From positions 1 to 30,747 of the IMG/VR virus record IMGVR_UViG_3300025840_000163: DNA of 30,747 bases. One strand, written 5' to 3'. Source of the stretch: a virus. Both the position numbers and the translations under genes were made by a program. Shown here piece by piece: positions 7,805-30,747 of the stretch; position 1 is the first letter of the stretch, and each line of letters begins with the position of its first letter. The notes under the pieces were generated by a model. That model was not told where the DNA came from. It made no database searches and worked only from the letters and a program-made list of their open reading frames with translations.

Positions 7805-9913
7805 ATGAGTAGATATACTTTAAATGATCAGTTAATTAGCCGATCAGAATTTTCTGAAAATACACTTAATGCTGATGGCTTATTAAGCAGTTTGCGTGAG
7901 GAATTTGGCAATAAATATTTATTGGAATTTGGCGATGATTATGACAATTTTAAATACCGCGTAATTATTCAAGAGCGTGGGTATATCGGCGCAGTATTGC
8001 CAATGGTTGGTGGTAGTGATCCGGTAGTTATAAAATGGGAGGGAGATGATGATTTTTATGAGCCAATTAAAGGATCGCAATGCACCATAAATTTAATGGT
8101 TACCGATTCGGTAACTTATGACAATTTTTACGAGGCACCGGAAAAAACATATAAAGTATTGGTTCAATGGTATGGATATGATGGTACTGGAAGTGGCCCA
8201 TTAACTTGGAACACAATTTGGCGTGGGTGGATTGTTGCCGATACATTCAAGGAATTAGTTAGCACAACGCCATATCCGATAACTTTAACGGCTTTTGATT
8301 GCCTCGGTACAATAGATGATTATGAGATAAATCCGGCCGCTTATCAGCCGCAATTTGGCGTTGAGAATATTTACCCATTACAAATAAAAATCATTGCCGA
8401 CATATTGCGCAATATTGATTTGGGTATGGATATAATTGCAACTCACGAATGGGTGAAATATGAGCAACAAACATTTATACCATCAAATACCGCGGCATTT
8501 GATTCTTTTATATTTGAAGGAAATCAACTATCAACAAAAGAAATTTTAACGGCCATTTTAAAATCAACCAATTCAAGGATATTTCAATCAGATGGGCGTT
8601 GGTGTATTATTCCTAATAGTTGTTATGAGGCGAGTGGGTTTACAACATCAATATCAAATTATACGGCATTTTTAGGTTATCAGCCGCCAGATATTCGCGA
8701 TTTAAAAACCCAATATTTAACCACAAACAATGCCGAGGTGGTAGTATTTGAAAAGTTTAATCCAAGAGGCGCGTACATTGGCACCGAGTCAAAAGATGCC
8801 CATATCGCAATGCCATCGGATGTTCAGAACATAGGCAATGATTTTGTTGTGGAATATTTACCACCATATAAAGAGGTAAGTATTGATTACAATATTGAGT
8901 CATATAATCATAGAAGATACCAAACAAACGCCAATCAGTTTTTTAATTTCGGCTTAACCGGTTACGATATTACCAATGGTGTAATTGGGCAATGGAATTA
9001 TACGCTTGGCGATTCGAAATATTCGTATCGTTTGGGGTTGTACAATCTTAGTTTAGGCAGTTATATTGAAGCAATGCGCACAAGTTTTTTGCAAACCGAT
9101 GAAAATGAGTTTGTGAGAAATAATAGAGATATGTCTTTAAATATAAGTTACTTATACGATAGTGATGCAACTGCCATAAATTACAATTTTTTATATAGTG
9201 TTAAATACACATCAAGCACATCATCGGATCGTTGGTATGATCCAGATACCGAGAGTTGGTCATTTACACCAATTTATATTGACGTAAATACAACACGAAC
9301 AAACGTCAATAAATTATGGGAATCGGCAAGTTTAGATTTTAAATCAATTGGTGATTCTACCGAATTGCAAGTGATTATTTATCGCCCATATATTGCCGGA
9401 ACTGGAGGTAATTACAACGCATTATATATTGGCGAGGTGTCATTGCAAGCCGTTGATCAATCGGAGCGTAAAATTCACAATTATAAAATAACCCAAGCAG
9501 ACAATACAAAGGTATATGAGCAAGAGCGAACAAGCGTTGAGCATATTACCGGATTTAGTGTATTTCCAAATTTTGATGTAGACAACGGACAATTGGCAAA
9601 AAGGCCGCGAGATAATTATCAAACGTGGGTTAAAACAAACCGAGCGCAAGTCATCAATAAAGAGATAATGAACGATTTTAGAACGTCAATTCATCGTTAT
9701 GAGGGTACGTTTAAAAACAATCATTACAAGCCGTTATCGATGCTCAATCGCCTTTGGATTAACTTTGGCGCAAGTGTAATGCAGTTGCCAGATAGTTGCA
9801 TCATTGATACCATAGAAGCGAATTTGAAGCGCAATGCGTACAAAATAAATATGCACTTGCCGAACATTGATAGCGACCAATTAGCGGTTGAAACCAATCA
9901 ATTCAAAAAATAA
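7805..9913 (+). CDS. Tail tip / distal tail structural protein
   Basis: A 702-residue protein starting five bases after the tape measure stop. The order tape measure, then tail tip, is standard in siphoviruses, so a baseplate or distal-tail role is inferred. The sequence is rich in Tyr, Asn and Asp, largely beta by appearance, with no catalytic motif I recognise. Residues 1-180 include YRVIIQERGYIGAVLPMVGG, WRGWIVADTFKE and ITLTAFDCLGTIDDYE. The latter resembles segments found in tail proteins of Bacteroidota phages. Later phrases include ILTAILKSTNSRIFQSDGRW. No signal peptide or membrane segment is seen. A combined Dit/Tal-like role is possible but unproven. Confidence 0.7.
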   Translation: MSRYTLNDQLISRSEFSENTLNADGLLSSLREEFGNKYLLEFGDDYDNFKYRVIIQERGYIGAVLPMVGGSDPVVIKWEGDDDFYEPIKGSQCTINLMVTDSVTYDNFYEAPEKTYKVLVQWYGYDGTGSGPLTWNTIWRGWIVADTFKELVSTTPYPITLTAFDCLGTIDDYEINPAAYQPQFGVENIYPLQIKIIADILRNIDLGMDIIATHEWVKYEQQTFIPSNTAAFDSFIFEGNQLSTKEILTAILKSTNSRIFQSDGRWCIIPNSCYEASGFTTSISNYTAFLGYQPPDIRDLKTQYLTTNNAEVVVFEKFNPRGAYIGTESKDAHIAMPSDVQNIGNDFVVEYLPPYKEVSIDYNIESYNHRRYQTNANQFFNFGLTGYDITNGVIGQWNYTLGDSKYSYRLGLYNLSLGSYIEAMRTSFLQTDENEFVRNNRDMSLNISYLYDSDATAINYNFLYSVKYTSSTSSDRWYDPDTESWSFTPIYIDVNTTRTNVNKLWESASLDFKSIGDSTELQVIIYRPYIAGTGGNYNALYIGEVSLQAVDQSERKIHNYKITQADNTKVYEQERTSVEHITGFSVFPNFDVDNGQLAKRPRDNYQTWVKTNRAQVINKEIMNDFRTSIHRYEGTFKNNHYKPLSMLNRLWINFGASVMQLPDSCIIDTIEANLKRNAYKINMHLPNIDSDQLAVETNQFKK

Positions 9914-11868: not shown

Positions 11869-12616
11869 AAAACAAGATTCAAACGAGGTGTATCATACAC
11901 AACCCGGCATAAGCGCATCGGGATTAAAAAAGATTTACAAGAAATCAGTATATCATTATTTAACGCAACAACCATTTGAATCGTCAGCAATGGCACTTGG
12001 TTCAGCGGTGCATTGCGCGATGCTGGAGCCGGAAAAGTTCTTTGATGAATATCACATTATGCCGCGAATGGATCGCCGCACAAAGGCCGGAAAAGAGGCG
12101 TATGAGATAGAGCAAAAAAAGGCCGAAGGCAAGTTGCTTATATCATCGGATGATTACGATACCATTGAGTCAATACTCACTAATTTCCGCAATGATGATT
12201 TGGCACAAAAATATTGCAAAGGCATTGTGGAGTTATCGCATTACACCAAGTATGAAGGTTTAGAGGTGCGCGTTAGACCGGATTGTTTAAATCGCGTTGA
12301 GAATTGGATTTCAGATATAAAGACGTGCCAAGATAACTCACCGCAAGCATTCAAAAGAGATGTGTACAAATACGCCTATCATTTACAAGCGGCGTTTTAT
12401 ATGGATATGCTTGGCATTGATAATTTTAGATTTATTGCCGTTGAAACAAATTATCCATATAGCGTTGAGGTTTACGCATTGAGTGAGGATATGATCGAGC
12501 AAGGCCGCCAAGCGTGGAAACAAGCGTTTGCGGATTGGAGATTGTATAAAGAGGCCGGCATTGTAAGCAAGCACAATTGGTTTGAATTTAATGATGATGG
12601 GAGCAAGGTATTATGA
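11861..12616 (+). CDS. RecE-like exonuclease (PD-(D/E)XK, DUF3799-like)
   Basis: A 251-residue protein resembling the C-terminal nuclease of E. coli exonuclease VIII. Motifs in order: GISASGLKKIYKKS (16-29) near the N-terminus; ALGSAVHCAMLEPEKF (45-60) with His51; RVRPDCLN (137-144) with Asp141; ISDIKTC (150-156) with Asp152 and Lys154, the D...DxK metal site; and YAYHLQAAFYMDMLG (171-185), the QxxxY motif. It would degrade one strand of duplex DNA to expose ssDNA for annealing, working with the proteins at 10190 and 10680. Length fits the nuclease domain alone. Confidence 0.85.
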   Translation: MIKKQDSNEVYHTQPGISASGLKKIYKKSVYHYLTQQPFESSAMALGSAVHCAMLEPEKFFDEYHIMPRMDRRTKAGKEAYEIEQKKAEGKLLISSDDYDTIESILTNFRNDDLAQKYCKGIVELSHYTKYEGLEVRVRPDCLNRVENWISDIKTCQDNSPQAFKRDVYKYAYHLQAAFYMDMLGIDNFRFIAVETNYPYSVEVYALSEDMIEQGRQAWKQAFADWRLYKEAGIVSKHNWFEFNDDGSKVL

Positions 12617-12900
12617 AGGCAGAAGATAGAAAACAAAGGCCGGTGTATAGCGGCGTTTTAAAATATTTCCCCGATGCCATTATGGAGGTAGCGTATGTGA
12701 GTTATATGGGAAATCAGCAACATCATCCAGATAAAGAGTTGCATTGGGATCGCAACAAATCAACCGATGAATTGGATGCATTAATGAGGCATTTAATAAG
12801 TGCCGGAACAAAAGACAAAGATGGGGTTCGACATTCTGCAAAGGTAGCGTGGAGGGCATTGGCTAACTTGCAAAAGGAAATAGAAAATGATGGCAGATAA
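12613..12900 (+). CDS. dATP/dGTP diphosphohydrolase-like protein (DUF5664 type)
   Basis: A 95-residue protein with the conserved phrases GVLKYFPDAIMEVAYVSYMG, GNQQHHP, LHWDRNKSTDELDALMRHL and DGVRHSAKVAWRALANLQ. These match the domain listed as dATP/dGTP diphosphohydrolase N-terminal, formerly DUF5664, and are mainly helical. Members are thought to act on purine dNTPs; a MazG-type dATP/dGTP enzyme takes part in Z-genome synthesis in cyanophage S-2L. No PurZ-like gene is visible here, so a base-substituted genome is not supported. It overlaps its neighbours by 4 and 14 bases. Confidence 0.75.
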   Translation: MKAEDRKQRPVYSGVLKYFPDAIMEVAYVSYMGNQQHHPDKELHWDRNKSTDELDALMRHLISAGTKDKDGVRHSAKVAWRALANLQKEIENDGR

Positions 12901-13303
12901 AAAAATTAGAGAATTGGTTGAGCAAGTTTATAAAGTAGACATAACCAATAGTTGCCGCGAGTCAAGATTTGTGCAAGCGCGTTTAATTTATTATAAATTG
13001 TGTATTGAATTTAGCCAATTAAATCAAACCAATATCGCAAAAAGCATCGGCAGAAATCACGCTACATTAATACACGGAATGAAACAATGGGATGTTTATG
13101 TGCGTTTTTTTGAAGGTTTTGAGAAAAATTATAATTTCATAAAGGCGGCATTATTGGAGGCAAAGATGTTTCCGAATGTCAAAAAGCGCATCACATTGGA
13201 TGAGTTATTGATAAAATACAATACGCTAATGGTCGAGAATGAGCAATTAAAAATTAAATTAGGCGAATCAAAAACTTGTAAGTGTGGCAAATGCGTTTTA
13301 TAA
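12887..13303 (+). CDS. DnaA domain IV-like DNA-binding protein
   Basis: A 138-residue protein. Residues 25-66 look like the C-terminal DnaA-box-binding domain: SRFVQARLIYYKLCIEFSQL, then NIAKSIGRNHATLIHGMKQW. GRNHATLIHG (55-64) parallels the DnaA signature GRDHTTVLHA. The ATPase part of DnaA is absent. A coiled-coil-like segment (LLIKYNTLMVENEQLKIKLG) and a C-terminal CKCGKC motif follow. Inferred role: binding DnaA-box-like sequences to steer host or phage initiation. Located one kilobase upstream of the putative origin-carrying gene. Confidence 0.7.
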   Translation: MMADKKIRELVEQVYKVDITNSCRESRFVQARLIYYKLCIEFSQLNQTNIAKSIGRNHATLIHGMKQWDVYVRFFEGFEKNYNFIKAALLEAKMFPNVKKRITLDELLIKYNTLMVENEQLKIKLGESKTCKCGKCVL

Positions 13304-13655
13304 ATATCTAACCGGCGAGGATAAATTGCAACACAATGTCATATTATATTTGCAGATGCAATACCCATCAGTTTTATGGGCGCACATTCCAAACGAGGGA
13401 AGGCGCACACCATTTGAGCGGTTTAAATTAAAATACTTGGGTGCAAAAAGTGGCGTGCCGGATCTTATGATATTTGCGCCAAATAAAAAATATAATGGAT
13501 TGGCCATTGAATTAAAATATAAGAAAAACAAACCAACCGAAAACCAAAAAAAATGGCTTGAGCAGTTATCTCAAAATAATTGGCTTGCCGTTTGGATTAA
13601 TGATTTCGATGAGTGTTGTGCATTAATCGATAAATATTTCAGAGATGAAGCATAA
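13284..13655 (+). CDS. VRR-NUC domain nuclease
   Basis: A 123-residue stand-alone VRR-NUC domain. EDKLQHNVILYLQMQYP is the usual N-terminal helix. SGVPDLMIF (56-64) carries Asp60, and LAIELKYKKNKPTENQKKWL (73-92) carries Glu76, Lys78 and Gln88, the catalytic set of this PD-(D/E)XK branch. IPNEGRR (35-41) is also typical. Stand-alone VRR-NUC proteins are considered Holliday-junction or branched-DNA nucleases, which fits the replication and recombination context. Its start overlaps the preceding gene by 20 bases; the ATG at 13284 is the only one giving the full N-terminal helix. Confidence 0.85.
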   Translation: MANAFYKYLTGEDKLQHNVILYLQMQYPSVLWAHIPNEGRRTPFERFKLKYLGAKSGVPDLMIFAPNKKYNGLAIELKYKKNKPTENQKKWLEQLSQNNWLAVWINDFDECCALIDKYFRDEA

Positions 13656-13890
13656 AAACGTTTATTTTGATCACATCAATCAAAAGGTCAGATGGACACA
13701 ATCAACAACGGCAGATGTACCGGTGCAATACAATTACATTGGTTCGATGTCGCGCGTTGAGTTCGATTTGCTTGTGGAGGTTCTTTGGGAAATATTCGAT
13801 GACTCGGATATTACGCTCGAAGAATTTTTGCGGTATTACGGACAGATTCGCGAGTTTTGTGATGACATTAAAAGATTGATAGACAAGTAA
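13645..13890 (+). CDS. Small hypothetical protein in replication module
   Basis: An 81-residue protein overlapping the VRR-NUC gene by 11 bases. The N-terminus is beta-like and basic (MKHKNVYFDHINQKVRWTQS). The remainder is acidic and helical (MSRVEFDLLVEVLWEIFDDS, ITLEEFLRYYGQIREFCDDI). No motif recognised. A competing ORF in another frame (13667-13879) is rejected because this frame continues the operon with the usual short overlap and better codon use. Confidence 0.65.
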   Translation: MKHKNVYFDHINQKVRWTQSTTADVPVQYNYIGSMSRVEFDLLVEVLWEIFDDSDITLEEFLRYYGQIREFCDDIKRLIDK

Positions 13891-13902
13891 AAAAACAAGA
13901 CA

Positions 13903-14889
13903 ATGAAGATTAACAAGATTATCAGACCGGCTCACACCGAGCAATGGTCAATGATTCCGACCGCCATATTTAAAAATAACGATGTTTCAATGGCCGCAGT
14001 TGGGTTGTATTGCTGGGTATATTCTCAACCGCCATCGGCAGAAATATCAAAGGATGCCATTTTAACGCATTTTAAGATAGGTTTAAGCGCGTTTTATGGT
14101 CGAGTGAAGGAATTAATCAACTGCGGATTTTTAGTGCGTGAGAACGCCCGAAATGAAGGCAAGTTTTCCGGTGTGAATTATTTACTGCTTAATGAGCCGT
14201 TTATTGATTTACCGCATACGGATTTGCCGTATATGGAAAAACCGCATACTGATAATCCGCATACGTATGATTTAAATCGAGGGATATATAATAATATATA
14301 TAATAATAATATATATAATAATAAAACCTTAGATAATAATAATATAAACTTAGATACTAATATAAACTTAGATAATAAGGTTAAACCTTATTTAGAGAAT
14401 ATTGTAAACAATATTCTTCCTCGAAATGAAAAAACTGCATTTTCAGATGGCACCATTAAAGCATTTGATCATTTCGTGGCATTGTTTCCGGATAAATACA
14501 AACCAAAATCCGAGGCACAAAAAAACAAATGGTTGGATTGCCTTGACAAAGTTCAGCGCATAGATGGGTATGATTTGCGTGAGGTTTATTTGATGGTCAA
14601 GAAAATGCGACAAGATGATTTTTGGCAAAGTAATTTTTTGAGCATTTTAAAACTGCGCAACACAGATAAAAATGGCGTGAAGTACATTGACCGGTTTATG
14701 GATCGTCAAGAGGATTATTTAAAATCGGCAAAAAATAAAATACAAGGCATCATCAGATTTTATAAATACACAACGCCGAGTGGTCAGATTGTTATTGGCG
14801 CAAAAACAAAAGGCGGTGATTTATCACACGAGATAATTGAGCAGAAATTAACTAATCAAGAAATTGAAAAAATAAAGGCAACATTATGA
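13903..14889 (+). CDS. Replication initiator (lambda O-like winged-helix protein)
   Basis: A 328-residue protein. Residues 8-95 form a winged-helix DNA-binding domain: EQWSMIPTAIFKNNDVSMAA, VGLYCWVYS, AEISKDAILTHFKIGLSAFY, RVKELINCGFLVRE. Residues 97-121 are five-residue repeats (NEPFI, DLPHT, DLPYM, EKPHT, DNPHT), followed by an Asn/Ile/Tyr-rich linker to about 165. Residues 185-260 form a C-terminal domain (FVALFPDKYKPKSEAQKNKW, MRQDDFWQSNFLSILKL, NGVKYIDRFM) resembling domains that contact helicase loaders. The layout, with the linker DNA forming the origin, mirrors lambda O. The partner helicase is encoded at 15344. Confidence 0.75.
   Translation: MKINKIIRPAHTEQWSMIPTAIFKNNDVSMAAVGLYCWVYSQPPSAEISKDAILTHFKIGLSAFYGRVKELINCGFLVRENARNEGKFSGVNYLLLNEPFIDLPHTDLPYMEKPHTDNPHTYDLNRGIYNNIYNNNIYNNKTLDNNNINLDTNINLDNKVKPYLENIVNNILPRNEKTAFSDGTIKAFDHFVALFPDKYKPKSEAQKNKWLDCLDKVQRIDGYDLREVYLMVKKMRQDDFWQSNFLSILKLRNTDKNGVKYIDRFMDRQEDYLKSAKNKIQGIIRFYKYTTPSGQIVIGAKTKGGDLSHEIIEQKLTNQEIEKIKATL
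14191..14416 (+). other. Putative replication origin inside the initiator gene
   Basis: Three elements occur in order: tandem iterons (14206-14265, with a degenerate unit at 14191); a tract made almost only of A and T from 14283 to about 14376 with internal repeats (AATATAAACTTAGATA at 14341 and 14359); and inverted repeats AAGGTTAAACCTT (14377-14389) and GAATATTGTAAACAATATTC (14397-14416, nine-base arms). The lambda origin inside gene O has the same order of four iterons, AT-rich region and inverted repeat. Function is inferred from this layout. Confidence 0.75.
14206..14265 (+). repeat. Four tandem 15-bp iterons
   Basis: The units are GATTTACCGCATACG, GATTTGCCGTATATG, GAAAAACCGCATACT and GATAATCCGCATACG, with exact 15-base spacing. 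The consensus core is CCGCATACG. They encode DLPHT, DLPYM, EKPHT and DNPHT. They are the likely binding sites of the winged-helix protein encoded by the same gene. Confidence 0.85.
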
Positions 14890-15302
14890 CGCATAAGGAA
14901 GTGAAAATTTGGGAGCAAGAATTAATTTTTTTACTGAACCTTGATGGTTGGCAACTAAAGCCATCAGAGGATAAATATTGTTTTTATGATGCGTATGGCA
15001 CAAATCCAAAAGGACAGAGTTGCATTTTAGAGTTTAAGTTTCGCCAAGATTATTACAAGACAAAAATATTAGAATGCGAGAAATGGAATAATTTGACCAA
15101 ATACAAAGTTGATGAAATTTATTATGTCGTAATTGATTCAAAGGGTTGCCATATATACACCGCAGATGCAATTGATCATCAAAAAGTAATTACATTGGAA
15201 TTACCAAAAAAGACAATTGCAGAGATAATTGAGAAGAAAACAAAAGCGTGTTATGAACTTGTAAAACCACCGGCATATTTTTACAAATATCATTTTTTTT
15301 AA
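14886..15302 (+). CDS. Hypothetical protein, possible PD-(D/E)XK-type fold
   Basis: A 138-residue protein overlapping the initiator gene by four bases. YCFYDAYGTNPKGQSCILEF followed by KFRQDYYKT has the spacing of a nuclease core: a strand with Asp, then a strand with E-x-K (LEFKFR). Later strands include VDEIYYVVIDSKGCHIYTAD, and the C-terminus ends KPPAYFYKYHFF. The nuclease reading is tentative, because the fold could equally be a non-catalytic relative. Position between the initiator and the primase-helicase promoter suggests a DNA-metabolism role. Confidence 0.6.
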   Translation: MTHKEVKIWEQELIFLLNLDGWQLKPSEDKYCFYDAYGTNPKGQSCILEFKFRQDYYKTKILECEKWNNLTKYKVDEIYYVVIDSKGCHIYTADAIDHQKVITLELPKKTIAEIIEKKTKACYELVKPPAYFYKYHFF

Positions 15303-15326
15303 AATATATTTTTATTTAATTTAGCC
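15301..15326 (+). promoter_or_regulatory. Putative promoter of the primase-helicase gene
   Basis: AAAATATATTTTTA runs into TTTAATTTAGCC, 17 bases before the ATG at 15344. The 12-mer TTTAATTTAGCC is identical to that at 11003-11014. Confidence 0.42.
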
Positions 15327-15343
15327 GAACAAGAAACAAGACA

Positions 15344-17023
15344 ATGTACAGACAAGAATTAGAACAAATTGGCATAATTGTCAAGGGCAATGCTGGTATG
15401 ACAAAAACCAAATGCCCAAAATGCTCACACGAGCGCAAGAAAAAATCGGATCCGTGCCTATCGGTAAACATCGATAAAGGGTTATACAATTGCCACAATT
15501 GCGGATGGAGTGGCGGCGTTAAATTTAAAGCGAGGCAAGAGTACACGATTCCAGAAAAAGAAAATGCCAACGTATCGGAGCGCGTGTTAAAATACTTTGA
15601 ATCACGAGGCATAAGCGAGCCAACGTTGGTGCATTGGAAAGTAGGCGAATCGTTGGAGTATATGCCGCAAGTGCAAAAGAATCGCCGCGTAATTAATTTT
15701 AATTATTACCGCGATAATAAACTTATCAATGTCAAATACCGCGATTCAGAAAAGAATTTTAAAATGGTCAGCGGCGCGGAGTTAATTTTTTATGGTTTGG
15801 ATAACATCCGAGAATTGGACAAAGTTTATGTGGTTGAGGGTGAGATGGATGCTTTATCCTTACACGAGGCCGGCGTCTATTCCGTTTGTAGTGTACCCAA
15901 TGGCGCATCAAAGGGCAATCAAAAATTAGAGTATTTAGATAATTGCTGGCAATATTTCAAAGACAAAAAGGAAATAATTATTTGCACCGACAACGATGAC
16001 GCCGGACTAATGTTACGCAATGAGTTGGCGCGTAGGTTTGGGCGGTATAAATGCAAATACGTTGATTTTGGGCAGTATAAAGATGCCAATGAGGTTTTAA
16101 TGGCCGAAGGCACAAAGTCATTACGAGCGTTTGTTAATGAGGCAAAATCGTTTCCTTTAGAGGGTGTTTTAAATATTGATAACATTTGGCAGAACGTACT
16201 GAATTACAACGAGAAGGGTGTTGTCAATTATGGCATTGGACTTGGTGAATCGGATGATTATTTTAAAATGGCATTTGGTGAGTGGTCCGTAATTACCGGG
16301 ATACCCAATAGCGGCAAGAGCGACATTGTGGATCAGATTTGCGTTAATATGGCAACCAAATATGGTTTTAGGAGTGCGATGTTTTCGCCGGAGTCATTCC
16401 CATACGAGGGCCACATAAAACGCATTGCCAATAAGTTAAACGAAAAGAATTGTAACAATGACGATTTGAATAATACCAAAGATTTTATTAGCGAGCATTT
16501 CCATTGGGTAAAGATTGATTTGGAAAACTTAACGCTAAAAGGTATTTTAACCGCATTCAGAGAGTTAGTGTTTCAAAGGGGGATAAACATTTGCGTGATT
16601 GATCCGTGGAATATGCTTGACCATTCCGCGCAAAAGGATTATTCCTACATTGGGCGGTTATTGTCAGAGATAACGCAATTTTGCCAACAAACCAATGTGC
16701 ATTTGTTATTGGTGGCGCATCCAAGAAAAATTGAATCAATCGAGGGGACATACAAAAAACCAACATTGTATGATATTAGCGGCTCCGCTGACTTTTTTAA
16801 TAAAACATATAATGGAATAATTTGTTACCGATGCATTGGGCAAAAGTCAAGTTATAAATCAGACATCGTCAAGATATACATTGAGAAGGTAAAGCGAAAA
16901 GAAAATGGCCAATTAGGTGATTTTGAAGTGGCACCGGATTTTTATAATGGTGGGGTGTATAAACCCATTGACCAAAACAATAAACGCTTTGAGGTAATAA
17001 AGGATAATAATATACCATTTTAA
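15344..17023 (+). CDS. DNA primase-helicase (T7 gp4 / Twinkle-like)
   Basis: A 559-residue bifunctional replication enzyme. The N-terminal zinc ribbon has Cys24/Cys27 (CPKC) and Cys50/Cys53 (CHNC). The TOPRIM primase domain shows KVYVVEGEMDALSLHEAG with Glu166 and TDNDDAG (215-221). The RecA-type hexameric helicase domain has Walker A GIPNSGKS (319-326), the post-strand FSPE with Glu350, Walker B ICVIDPW (416-422), and LLLVAHPRK (454-462). DISGSADFFNKTYNGIICYR matches the DnaB-family C-terminal motif. It would unwind DNA and prime lagging-strand synthesis. With no phage polymerase in the window, host polymerase is presumably recruited. Confidence 0.93.
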   Translation: MYRQELEQIGIIVKGNAGMTKTKCPKCSHERKKKSDPCLSVNIDKGLYNCHNCGWSGGVKFKARQEYTIPEKENANVSERVLKYFESRGISEPTLVHWKVGESLEYMPQVQKNRRVINFNYYRDNKLINVKYRDSEKNFKMVSGAELIFYGLDNIRELDKVYVVEGEMDALSLHEAGVYSVCSVPNGASKGNQKLEYLDNCWQYFKDKKEIIICTDNDDAGLMLRNELARRFGRYKCKYVDFGQYKDANEVLMAEGTKSLRAFVNEAKSFPLEGVLNIDNIWQNVLNYNEKGVVNYGIGLGESDDYFKMAFGEWSVITGIPNSGKSDIVDQICVNMATKYGFRSAMFSPESFPYEGHIKRIANKLNEKNCNNDDLNNTKDFISEHFHWVKIDLENLTLKGILTAFRELVFQRGINICVIDPWNMLDHSAQKDYSYIGRLLSEITQFCQQTNVHLLLVAHPRKIESIEGTYKKPTLYDISGSADFFNKTYNGIICYRCIGQKSSYKSDIVKIYIEKVKRKENGQLGDFEVAPDFYNGGVYKPIDQNNKRFEVIKDNNIPF

Positions 17024-17575: not shown

Positions 17576-18012
17576 AAAGACTTGTAAATATTGCCGAGGT
17601 AAAAGAAAACCCGGAAAATCCGCGTTTTATAAAAGATGGCAAGTTTAAAAAACTTGTTAAATCCATTAAGGAATTTCCGCAAATGCTTGAAAAGCGGCCT
17701 ATTGTGGTTGATGAAAATATGGTTGTTCTTGGTGGCAATATGCGTTTAAAGGCGTGCAAATCCGCTGGGTTATTTGAAGTGTGGGTGGACATCGCGCAAG
17801 GATGGACAGATGCAGAAAAACGAGAATTTATTATTAAAGATAATATTGGCTTTGGTGAGTGGGATTGGGATATATTGGCAAATGCTTGGGATACAAAACA
17901 ATTGATTGATTGGGGGATGGATTTACCGGTATTTGATATGCCAATGGATGATGAGCCAAAAGAAGAAAAAGAGCAAGAAGAAAAGGAACTTTGCCCAATG
18001 TGCGGTAAATGA
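17569..18012 (+). CDS. ParB-like nuclease-domain protein (start uncertain)
   Basis: The conserved ParB/sulfiredoxin-like region begins upstream of the first ATG (17683). In frame from about 17572 it reads LKRLVNIAEVKENPENPRF, then DGKFKKLVKSIKEFPQMLEK, RPIVVDENMVVLGGNMRLKA and FIIKDNIGFGEWDWDILAN. These match stand-alone ParB-like phage proteins near terminase genes. No ATG, GTG or TTG occurs between the upstream in-frame stop (17554-17556) and 17683, so initiation at ATT 17569 or ATC 17566, coupled to the preceding stop, is inferred. Starting at 17683 would remove the first third of the domain. The acidic tail ends in CPMCGK, possibly half a zinc site. Confidence 0.7.
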   Translation: MLKRLVNIAEVKENPENPRFIKDGKFKKLVKSIKEFPQMLEKRPIVVDENMVVLGGNMRLKACKSAGLFEVWVDIAQGWTDAEKREFIIKDNIGFGEWDWDILANAWDTKQLIDWGMDLPVFDMPMDDEPKEEKEQEEKELCPMCGK

Positions 18013-24237: not shown

Positions 24238-24486
24238 ATGAATTATCAAAGATTTAACCGCCACGAAATTTTTACATCAGAAGATCGCACACTTGTTTTC
24301 AATGCCATTAATGAGGTTGAGGACAGAAACGATCGCGAAACTGCAAATATGCTTTTTGGTCTTTTCGATGGGTATTTATATGCAAATCTTTATCAAGCAT
24401 TAGATAGTCAATTGCGAATCAAAACGCTAAAGCAAATGACTGATTTGATTTGGAGAATTGAAGATTACATTTTATTTAAAAAATAA
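24238..24486 (+). CDS. Hypothetical protein, first gene of accessory island
   Basis: An 82-residue, mostly helical acidic protein (NRHEIFTSEDRTLVFNAINE, DRETANMLFGLFDGYLYANL, LKQMTDLIWRIEDYILFKK). It is driven by the strong promoter at 24164 and separated from the capsid gene by a terminator. It is the leading gene of a five-gene block placed between capsid and connector genes. No family recognised. A hairpin follows its stop within four bases. Confidence 0.65.
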   Translation: MNYQRFNRHEIFTSEDRTLVFNAINEVEDRNDRETANMLFGLFDGYLYANLYQALDSQLRIKTLKQMTDLIWRIEDYILFKK

Positions 24487-24489
24487 TAT

Positions 24490-24512
24490 AATGGCCGCCT
24501 CGCGCGGCCATT
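24490..24512 (+). repeat. Intergenic GC-rich hairpin
   Basis: AATGGCCGC-CTCGC-GCGGCCATT is a perfect nine-pair stem with a five-base loop. There is no T-run after it (ACCTTTTA), so it is unlikely to be a full terminator. It sits between a stop (24486) and an ATG (24524), as the GCAA hairpins at 11236 and 11481 do, and shares their GGCCGC/GCGGCC core. Confidence 0.75.
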
Positions 24513-24523
24513 ACCTTTTACCA

Positions 24524-24673
24524 ATGGCACAAGACAAGAAAAAACAAGAGGCAATTAAGCGGCTCGAAAAGTTGCTTTATTATTTCCCTTATATGAGTGA
24601 GAATATTTTATTGAGGGATCAAATCATCGAAGTATATAATTTATTAAGCGACAAAGATTATGCAAAAGACTAA
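24524..24673 (+). CDS. Small helical hypothetical protein (49 aa)
   Basis: Starting at the ATG after the hairpin it reads MAQDKKKQEAIKRLEKLLYY, then FPYMSENILLRDQIIEVYNL and LSDKDYAKD. Two amphipathic helices are likely. An upstream in-frame ATG at 24458 would read through the stem-loop and overlap the preceding gene, so 24524 is preferred. It overlaps the next ORF by 14 bases. Function unknown. Confidence 0.58.
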   Translation: MAQDKKKQEAIKRLEKLLYYFPYMSENILLRDQIIEVYNLLSDKDYAKD

Positions 24674-28625: not shown

Positions 28626-28933
28626 GGGTTTTAATTTTCATATTGATGTTTATGCCAATGACGATGATTGGGCAAGTTAAAGTGATCCAAGTTAATTCAT
28701 CGTGGAATCGGCAAAACGATTTAAAATTGAATTTAAAGAATTGCCAATATCAATTTGCGTTATTAGAAGATTTAAGCGACAATATAAAAGGGCAGATTAA
28801 AAGCGTGCCATTTTTGTACGTCATAAAGGATGGGCATATTGTGCGCCAATATCAAGGCGGATTGCGAATGCGGTTAAATGTAACCGAAGAAGAATTGCAA
28901 GCATTTATAAATCAATTGAACAATGGTCAGTAA
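28622..28933 (+). CDS. Secreted thioredoxin-fold protein lacking CxxC
   Basis: A 103-residue protein with a signal peptide: MRVLIFILMFMPMTMIGQ has a basic start, a hydrophobic core and a small-residue cleavage region, and no lipobox cysteine follows. The mature part ends with IKSVPFLYVIKDGHIVRQYQ, then GGLRMRLNVTEEELQAFINQ, the second half of a thioredoxin fold with the cis-Pro (SVP) and VIKDG strand turn. The active-site CxxC is absent and the region before it looks shortened, so a redox role is unlikely. Placed between holin-like and endolysin genes, a periplasmic lysis role is possible. Confidence 0.65.
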   Translation: MRVLIFILMFMPMTMIGQVKVIQVNSSWNRQNDLKLNLKNCQYQFALLEDLSDNIKGQIKSVPFLYVIKDGHIVRQYQGGLRMRLNVTEEELQAFINQLNNGQ

Positions 28934-30271: not shown

Positions 30272-30529
30272 ATGTTTGGATTAGGATTAAAAGTTGTAAA
30301 CCCAATCGCAGTTTTAGCGGTTACCGATGACGATTATTTCGCGCAGAGGGTAGCGGCTGATGGCGGCATTATGGAGGCATTCGGTTGTGTTGTTGAGGCG
30401 ATCTTGGATTTCCCACAAGCAGATTTAGGCAGACAATTATTCGATGCTTACGATGCAAGATGTGAGGCGGCAAGTGGAGATACAGAGGCAAGAGTTTGCA
30501 CCATTAACGAATTAAACGATTTATTATGA
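30272..30529 (+). CDS. Small protein equal to the C-terminal module of the fibre at 2290
   Basis: An 85-residue protein. From residue 26, RVAADGGIMEAFGCVVEAIL and then RQLFDAYDARCEAASGDTEA, ending RVCTINELNDLL. It aligns over about 60 residues with the last 65 residues of the fibre encoded at 2290-4005 (RVAADGGSLEAIACLLAALD ... TEARACTITELDNLL). Here the module is free-standing with a short hydrophobic N-terminus. Its stop overlaps the ATG of the next fibre gene (ATGA). Possible role: fibre assembly or attachment. Confidence 0.72.
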   Translation: MFGLGLKVVNPIAVLAVTDDDYFAQRVAADGGIMEAFGCVVEAILDFPQADLGRQLFDAYDARCEAASGDTEARVCTINELNDLL

Positions 30530-30747
30530 GTTTGTACAATGACGCAAGTTTAGCGATGATTCCATCTGCGGTTAAGGATGGGAAATTATATAGCATTAGA
30601 CCAAGTGATGGAAGCGGAGATTTTACGTTTTCAAGAGGTTCTAATTTAGCGGCTACAAGGGTTGATGTTAATGGTTTAATTGAGAAGGGTAGAGAGAATC
30701 TTTTGTTGCAGTCTAATCAGTTTGATACGACTTGGACAACGAGTAGT
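30526..30747 (+). CDS. Tail fibre protein, N-terminal part (3' truncated by window end)
   Basis: 74 codons are visible before the window ends. MSLYNDASLAMIPSAVKDGK matches the start of the fibre at 2290 (MSLLDKASIISIPIAYDEG). FTFSRGSNLAATRVDVNGLI and ENLLLQSNQFDTTW are the conserved fibre core. It probably continues as the partial gene at the left end of the window. If the two ends are abutted directly, however, the frame hits a stop after 22 codons, so a piece of sequence seems to be missing between them. Confidence 0.75.
   Translation, partial: MSLYNDASLAMIPSAVKDGKLYSIRPSDGSGDFTFSRGSNLAATRVDVNGLIEKGRENLLLQSNQFDTTWTTSS

Follow-up and report, generated by a model that had tools for sequence, protein, structure and literature searches.

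It is highly likely, on the strength of comparative sequence analysis, that the window (the whole stretch of viral DNA analyzed here, 30,747 bases in length) carries a replication origin embedded in its replication initiator gene (13903–14889, plus strand, 328 amino acids). Within this gene, iterons that are conserved as DNA co-vary with the winged-helix domain encoded beside them and are transferred together with it, and they are accompanied by a conserved A/T-rich tract and by a helicase gene as a conserved neighbor. The repeats lie between the parts of the gene that encode the DNA-binding and C-terminal domains and the A/T-rich tract lies directly downstream of them, as in origins of the lambda type. 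An in-gene origin is of a known kind; less ordinary are an iteron code that is shared independently of the reading frame and a clean natural swap of the cassette that contains it.

The AlphaFold2 model of the initiator consists of a winged helix, a disordered linker (amino acids 102–177, pLDDT < 50), a DnaD-like C-domain and a small C-terminal extension. PHROG profiles matched the N-terminal half to replication initiation proteins and the C-terminal half to the 'DnaD-like helicase loader' (phrog_2514, E = 4e-7) and 'replication initiation O-like' families. The winged-helix DNA-binding domain (amino acids 21–95; 13963–14187, plus strand) is HTH_36-like, as judged from its secondary structure, its relatives and its VIA fold matches, which comprise RctB domain 1 (Z = 9.6), Geobacillus primosomal DnaB (Z = 9.4), a 'Rep-DNA complex' (5kbj, Z = 7.7) and the PLE RepA NTD (4RO3, Z = 7.0). 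The window protein had no Pfam match at E ≤ 0.1, and thus no direct match to HTH_36 (PF13730); the family was recognized in relatives (L004, 1.2e-7; L008, 3e-8; L116, 5e-6), of which L004 and L008 can be aligned with the window initiator across the entire HTH_36 domain. A PF13730 profile search of the record returned a sub-threshold match at 28816–28920 alone and missed the initiator, so the absence of a profile match there is uninformative for the N-domain. The Phage_rep_O profile (PF04492) had no match in the window and its E. coli control was positive, and membership of the lambda O family was rejected on these grounds. RepA_N (PF06970) matched nothing in the window or its relatives, with the control genomes equally silent, no Rep_3 initiator was found in the record, and a PDB sequence search with the initiator alignment gave nothing convincing.

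The helical C-domain (amino acids 182–279; 14446–14739, plus strand) is common to both initiator types distinguished below (A and B). Its best VIA match is to DnaD residues 127–193 (Z = 5.8, 67 aligned), a level at which a chance helical arrangement is possible, and Foldseek with the C-domain alone returned nothing under E = 0.05; the likeness to DnaD, to which phrog_2514 also points, is thus modest. The beta/alpha extension that follows in the model (amino acids 283–327; 14749–14883, plus strand), which makes up the last ~45 residues, is present in most type-A and type-B relatives, is missing in L045–L047 and gave chromo-shadow-like fold matches, weak ones only.

Four tandem 15-base iterons had been reported in the initiator gene in a preliminary description of this DNA, and they are indeed present, though degenerate. 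The units, TTGATTTACCG at 14204, CGGATTTGCCG at 14219, TGGAAAAACCG at 14234 and CTGATAATCCG at 14249 (array 14204–14259, plus strand), are centered on A-tracts and follow the form CGG-W5-CCG (W = A/T) with a 15-bp spacing; the entire 15-bp register extends from ~14196/14197 to ~14271, with copies that are 63–73% identical. Both half-sites are intact in one of the four iterons, and some of the half-sites in the array have decayed. The array is located ~300 bp inside the initiator gene, in the DNA that encodes the linker. It was not listed by TRF at a score of ≥30, and compared with a synonymous-codon null it reached p = 0.03, so that by itself the window array appears moderately unlikely to have arisen by chance; it is through the relatives that the case for iterons becomes strong.

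Viral contigs were scanned twice and genome contigs once, which provided 114 loci containing 95 distinct genes, 93 of which were typed by their N-domain (74 type A and 19 type B). Directly after the wing, the type-A genes carry CCG-N3/4-CGG sites in 14- or 15-bp steps, and CCG/CGG iterons at this spacing are found in none of the 19 type-B genes. At least two CGG-W5-CCG units were detected in 59 of the 74 type-A linkers with the scan used, the remainder containing mostly variants such as ACCACAAACGGA, and the spacer from CGG to CCG is mostly 5 nt long and 93% A/T. Three readings of the repeats occur: CCG NNN NCG is used in the group to which the window belongs, ACC GNN predominates among the other genes, and a third set has AAC CGN, such that one repeat DNA yields RGG/RDG, TAAV/TATV or PGPV peptides according to frame. 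Furthermore, 21 of the genes listed mix frames inside one array (2,2,1,0 in L013, L019 and L020; 1,1,1,0 in L009 and L011) owing to a 14-bp step at some point along it. As the iterons are read in frames 0, 1 and 2, it is the DNA that is kept and not the peptide, and an explanation of the repeats at the peptide level was ruled out. The linker is disordered, as the preliminary description had supposed, but the PHT-type pentapeptides that it drew attention to are incidental, because relatives read that DNA in other frames. The alignment of homologues that it had recommended revealed iterons kept as DNA beyond codon needs in all three frames, with the repeat outscoring all 400 synonymous recodings in 11 relatives (p = 0.0025, the floor of the comparison). 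One relative, L005 (4012–4959; 51% identity), has a diverged recognition helix and lacks CCG iterons altogether, possibly a specificity change in progress; its linker contains the palindromes GATTTAAATC and AGTTTAAACT instead, which are not significant by the codon null.

Downstream of the iterons, the tract at 14284–14378 (plus strand) is a putative DNA unwinding element. With 91.6% A/T it is the top 95-nt stretch of the window (the runner-up has 83%) and the A/T maximum at every scale tried, in agreement with the earlier account of ~95 bases of A/T-rich DNA with internal repeats, which are 15–21 bp long. Across the relatives, the Ile codons of the tract are ATA in 122 of 139 cases, vs. 223 of 689 elsewhere in the gene (p = 7e-35, a nominal value because the sequences are related). 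The tract opens with an A/T inverted repeat, ATATATAATAATATATAT (14284–14301), that recurs in relatives as TATATATAATAATATATATA, and a repeat search identified A/T-rich direct repeats of the AATATAAACTTAGATA type (18–21 bp; 14315–14378, plus strand), which are expanded in L002/L003. The direct repeats form a second repeat class with a variable copy number, and L016–L018 have AATATACAAGAT at the equivalent place.

The two palindromes formerly placed at 14397–14416 and 14377 are real and slightly longer than described: AATAAGGTTAAACCTTATT (arm 9, 14374–14392) and AGAATATTGTAAACAATATTCT (arm 10, 14396–14417). The window contains just one further inverted repeat with an arm of at least 9, and two palindromes of this size within 60 nt are rare under the synonymous null (3e-4). 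The closest relatives (L002–L004 and L059) lack both, and L016/L017 contain unrelated palindromes at the matching end of the tract. The pair is therefore no required part of the shared design and was rejected as an element of it, being lineage-specific. Matches to TnnT, the DnaD-recognition motif, stood at 6.1 vs. 3.9 on the top strand in the wider set and at 15 vs. 14.2 in the window tract, and were not used as evidence because the window's own tract is not enriched in them.

The type-B relatives share their C-domain and gene order with type A, and their N-domain is ~24% identical to that of type A. All 19 type-B linkers, and none of the 74 type-A linkers, contain the iteron TTGAAGAAAACTTCAA (TTGAAG-AAAA-CTTCAA), likewise an inverted repeat with an A-tract at its center. 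A particularly direct comparison is offered by the L012/L037 hybrid: the two loci are 95.7% identical over 3.27 kb upstream and 93.0% identical over 3.74 kb downstream, and in the stretch compared they differ mainly in L012 4914–5376 (463 bp) vs. L037 4597–4952 (356 bp). The replaced block starts just 5' of the start codon and takes in the winged helix, the iterons and the start of the A/T tract; in A/B pairs of this kind the C-domains are 99–100% identical and the N-domains ~24%. The L012/L037 pair constitutes a natural domain swap, indicating which DNA the domain reads, and we propose that the winged helix and the iterons would make up one exchangeable specificity cassette, with the C-domain and the helicase as shared machinery.

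The iteron code extends well beyond these loci. The exact two-iteron pattern CCGN4CGGAAAANCCGN4CGGAAAA is present in at least 120 viral stretches, compared with one for a control pattern in which the half-sites were permuted. Among the matches listed, 98 of the 118 pattern loci tested lie in an ORF with the winged helix of the initiator, typically no more than ~25 residues past the end of the domain, and several of the remaining 20 are initiators cut off at contig ends; frames 0, 1 and 2 are represented 78, 13 and 7 times among the listed pattern loci. Iterons of the form CCG-N4-CGG-AAAA follow the wing in annotated phages of Bacteroides, Parabacteroides, Lactobacillus, Enterococcus, Parageobacillus and Arthrobacter, and the code is also found in plasmids of Staphylococcus nepalensis, Brevibacillus and Sinorhizobium, with a degenerate form at best in a Streptomyces plasmid. 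Phages or plasmids of Bacteroidota, Bacillota, Actinomycetota and Pseudomonadota are thereby represented, including the higher-GC genomes of Arthrobacter phage Wheelbite and a Sinorhizobium plasmid. When 123 arrays (L001–L240) were anchored on their last exact iteron, the consensus read A4-CCG-N4-CGG-A4-T-CCg, then A/T-rich DNA, and the 65 nt past the last iteron contained TACTAA in 59 of the 123 (shuffled mean 8) and GTAATA in 47 (shuffled mean 5.6), counts that are descriptive and no independent proof because the set was partly gathered by pattern search. The two motifs are reminiscent of the DnaA-trio/DRE strand of B. subtilis. Independent evidence for the code comes from its place after the winged helix and from the control pattern. 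A literature search that covered few subscription journals found no report of a CGG-W5-CCG iteron code.

The initiator gene is followed by a gene for a T7-gp4-like primase-helicase (15344–17023, plus strand; phrog_239, E = 1.6e-90) with a Zn finger, recognized by the Cys pattern in its translation, a TOPRIM domain (Toprim_2, 7.5e-14) and a RecA/DnaB-type motor (AAA_25; DnaB_C, 8.9e-5). Of the 95 loci, 82 encode a relative of this protein 3' of the initiator, and many of the loci that lack one are probably cut short by contig ends. No IstB/DnaC-type loader was matched in the record, no loader gene was recognized among the PHROG-scanned ORFs, and no family A DNA polymerase was found in the record, which may be incomplete; the unusual combination of genes remarked upon previously, a gp4-like enzyme next door with no detectable loader or polymerase, is supported to this extent. 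In two distant phages with these iterons, Enterococcus fHoEfm07 and Parageobacillus NIIg3.2, a DnaC-like loader adjoins the initiator. Our guess is that in the window lineage the initiator C-domain may replace the loader. Upstream, in the gene cluster that also includes the initiator, a 138-amino-acid protein (12887–13303, plus strand) consists of DnaA domain IV, the DnaA-box-binding helix-turn-helix, only (Bac_DnaA_C, E = 1.8e-7), and could bind host DnaA boxes or aid the phage origin. A like-annotated 'DnaA protein' (L115 40–507) is situated 5' of the replication protein gene in Cellulophaga phage phi18:3.

The record as a whole is that of a tailed, siphovirus-like phage with terminase, portal, capsid protease and major head and tail genes, and all main genes of the window are on the plus strand. 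Relatives from genome bins point to marine Flavobacteriaceae as hosts; the contig of one relative, L055 (PBPJ01000031.1), is binned as a Woesearchaeota MAG and is probably a mis-binned phage contig. The circular genome assumed at the outset was not borne out, as a search for terminal repeats was negative and the end ORFs are out of frame across the junction. The end ORFs (1–1199 and 30526–30747) resemble parts of similar surface/LamG-type proteins. Cumulative GC skew, another check that had been suggested, is positive throughout the window and shows no inflection at the iterons (detrended extremes at 8237 and 24770), a result that is uninformative because all genes are on one strand. Other features observed were a homing-endonuclease-like gene among the structural genes (1585–2280; phrog_314, E = 4e-36), a short ParB/methyltransferase-N-like protein encoded directly 5' of the small terminase gene (17683–18012; phrog_940, phrog_498) and an inverted repeat, TAATGGCCGCCTCGCGCGGCCATTA (arm 10, 24489–24513), within or after the small ORFs 24238–24486 and 24458–24673, which is no obvious terminator.

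As iterons followed by A/T-rich DNA are arranged in the order known from lambda, SPP1 and pSK41, we infer that the initiator binds the iterons, that the tract opens and that the primase-helicase is delivered to it for use of the site as an origin. The winged helix would bind the four CGG-W5-CCG iterons in the DNA that codes for its own linker, and several bound protomers would bend the array and help to melt the adjoining A/T-rich tract. The linker would tether the DnaD-like C-domain, which would then recruit the phage T7-gp4-like primase-helicase to the opened strands, a step that is conjecture, and the host polymerase would complete the fork.

Three other explanations were weighed against this origin. 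The repeats could simply reflect a flexible, low-complexity linker, Pro/Asn-rich and generated by slippage in an A/T-rich genome, without a function as DNA. The disorder of the linker in the AlphaFold2 model, the p value of the window repeat alone and the general preference of the phage genome for A/T-rich codons are all compatible with such an origin of the repeats, but it would leave unexplained why the same repeat DNA is read in three frames to give different peptides, why the iteron type switches along with the DNA-binding domain, why the pattern exceeds its control by at least 120 to 1 and is localized past the winged helix, and why it is also found in the higher-GC Arthrobacter phage and Sinorhizobium plasmid; we regard it as very improbable. 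Winged-helix proteins frequently autoregulate, and the repeats might alternatively be operators through which the initiator represses itself or its operon, with the true origin elsewhere. The co-variation and the swap demonstrate that site and domain are paired and are silent on what binding does, and so they sit equally well with operators. However, the sites are ~300 bp inside the gene and not at a promoter, the adjoining A/T tract is conserved with its A/T codon bias, and the equivalent layout is an origin in lambda, pSK41 and SPP1 (PMC7466680, PMC5703833, PMC6316719), and we regard operators with an origin elsewhere as improbable.

Somewhat less improbable, though still unlikely, is an origin at this position that is unwound by host DnaA, perhaps with help from the phage DnaA-domain-IV protein, with the initiator just marking the site. 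A relative of the domain-IV protein is encoded just upstream of the initiator in 78 of the 95 loci, and in the wider set the iterons are followed by TACTAA-type motifs that resemble the DnaA-trio/DRE sequence (PMC10201434). Against this, the region 12500–15500 has no consensus DnaA box and only two sites with one mismatch. The DnaA filament is made by the AAA+ part of the protein, and the phage protein was matched at domain IV only, with the AAA+ part unmatched. An origin at which the initiator itself opens the DNA remains our preferred reading.

On a wider scale, we tentatively put forward that a frame-independent CGG-W5-CCG code that repeats every 14/15 bp and leads into an unwinding tract rich in TACTAA or in A/T may be common to replicons of at least four phyla, both phages and plasmids, with the winged helix and iterons as an exchangeable specificity unit, and that in the Flavobacteriaceae phage lineage the origin may be coupled without a loader to a T7-like primase-helicase via the DnaD-like domain. 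If this is true, the origins of such replicons can be read from sequence alone. To our knowledge, the origins of most phages known from metagenomes alone are unmapped. The iteron pattern of one winged-helix family would locate the origin to ~100 bp in many metagenomic phage genomes and would predict which replicons compete for common sites, and with a self-contained primase-helicase as its partner, replacement of a loader by a DnaD-like domain becomes testable.

The lambda origin, with which the preliminary description had equated this site, lies in gene O. Its iterons, imperfect inverted repeats of 19 bp, are bound by the N-terminal domain and precede an A/T tract, the minimal unwinding unit being two iterons plus the A/T region (PMC7466680). 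The equation holds for the layout, in that lambda (and Stx phages) and the window both have tandem repeats and then A/T-rich DNA midway along the initiator gene (PMC7466680), but it does not extend to the protein family, in view of the negative PF04492 result, or to the palindromes, which are lineage-specific. The iterons also differ in length (19 bp vs. 15 bp) and in sequence, and lambda has a P-type loader, whereas in the window none was seen and the phage has its own primase-helicase. The oriL of SPP1 is again inside the initiator gene as in the window, in that the replisome-organizer gene 38 contains direct repeats together with an unwinding element of A/T-rich DNA (PMC6316719); SPP1 differs in its loader gp39, its DnaB-type helicase gp40 and its second origin, oriR. 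The RepA_N plasmids are close in design: the pSK41 Rep protein has four Rep boxes in rep, a dispensable linker and a DnaD-like CTD that binds primase, and so shares with the window initiator a wHTH N-domain, four in-gene sites, an ori-coded linker and, tentatively, a DnaD-like CTD (PMC5703833). In pPR9, ~500 bp of pSK41 Rep, encompassing the N-domain and origin, is replaced by a phage-like HTH_36 N-domain to give a functional, compatible replicon, a precedent for the L012/L037 exchange (PMC5703833). The window departs from these plasmids in its phage-encoded primase-helicase and Flavobacteriaceae host, and in leaving PF06970 unmatched, as the control did too. By PHROG, the N-domain belongs with the HTH_36-type phage initiators and replisome organizers (phrog_270, 428, 4221 and others), among which fHoEfm07 and NIIg3.2 have a DnaC-like loader, compared with the T7-gp4-like primase-helicase and no detectable loader of the window lineage. 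Taken together, the sequence comparisons place the window initiator nearer to the HTH_36 phage initiators than to lambda O, homology to which is rejected, in a design that resembles that of the RepA_N plasmids.
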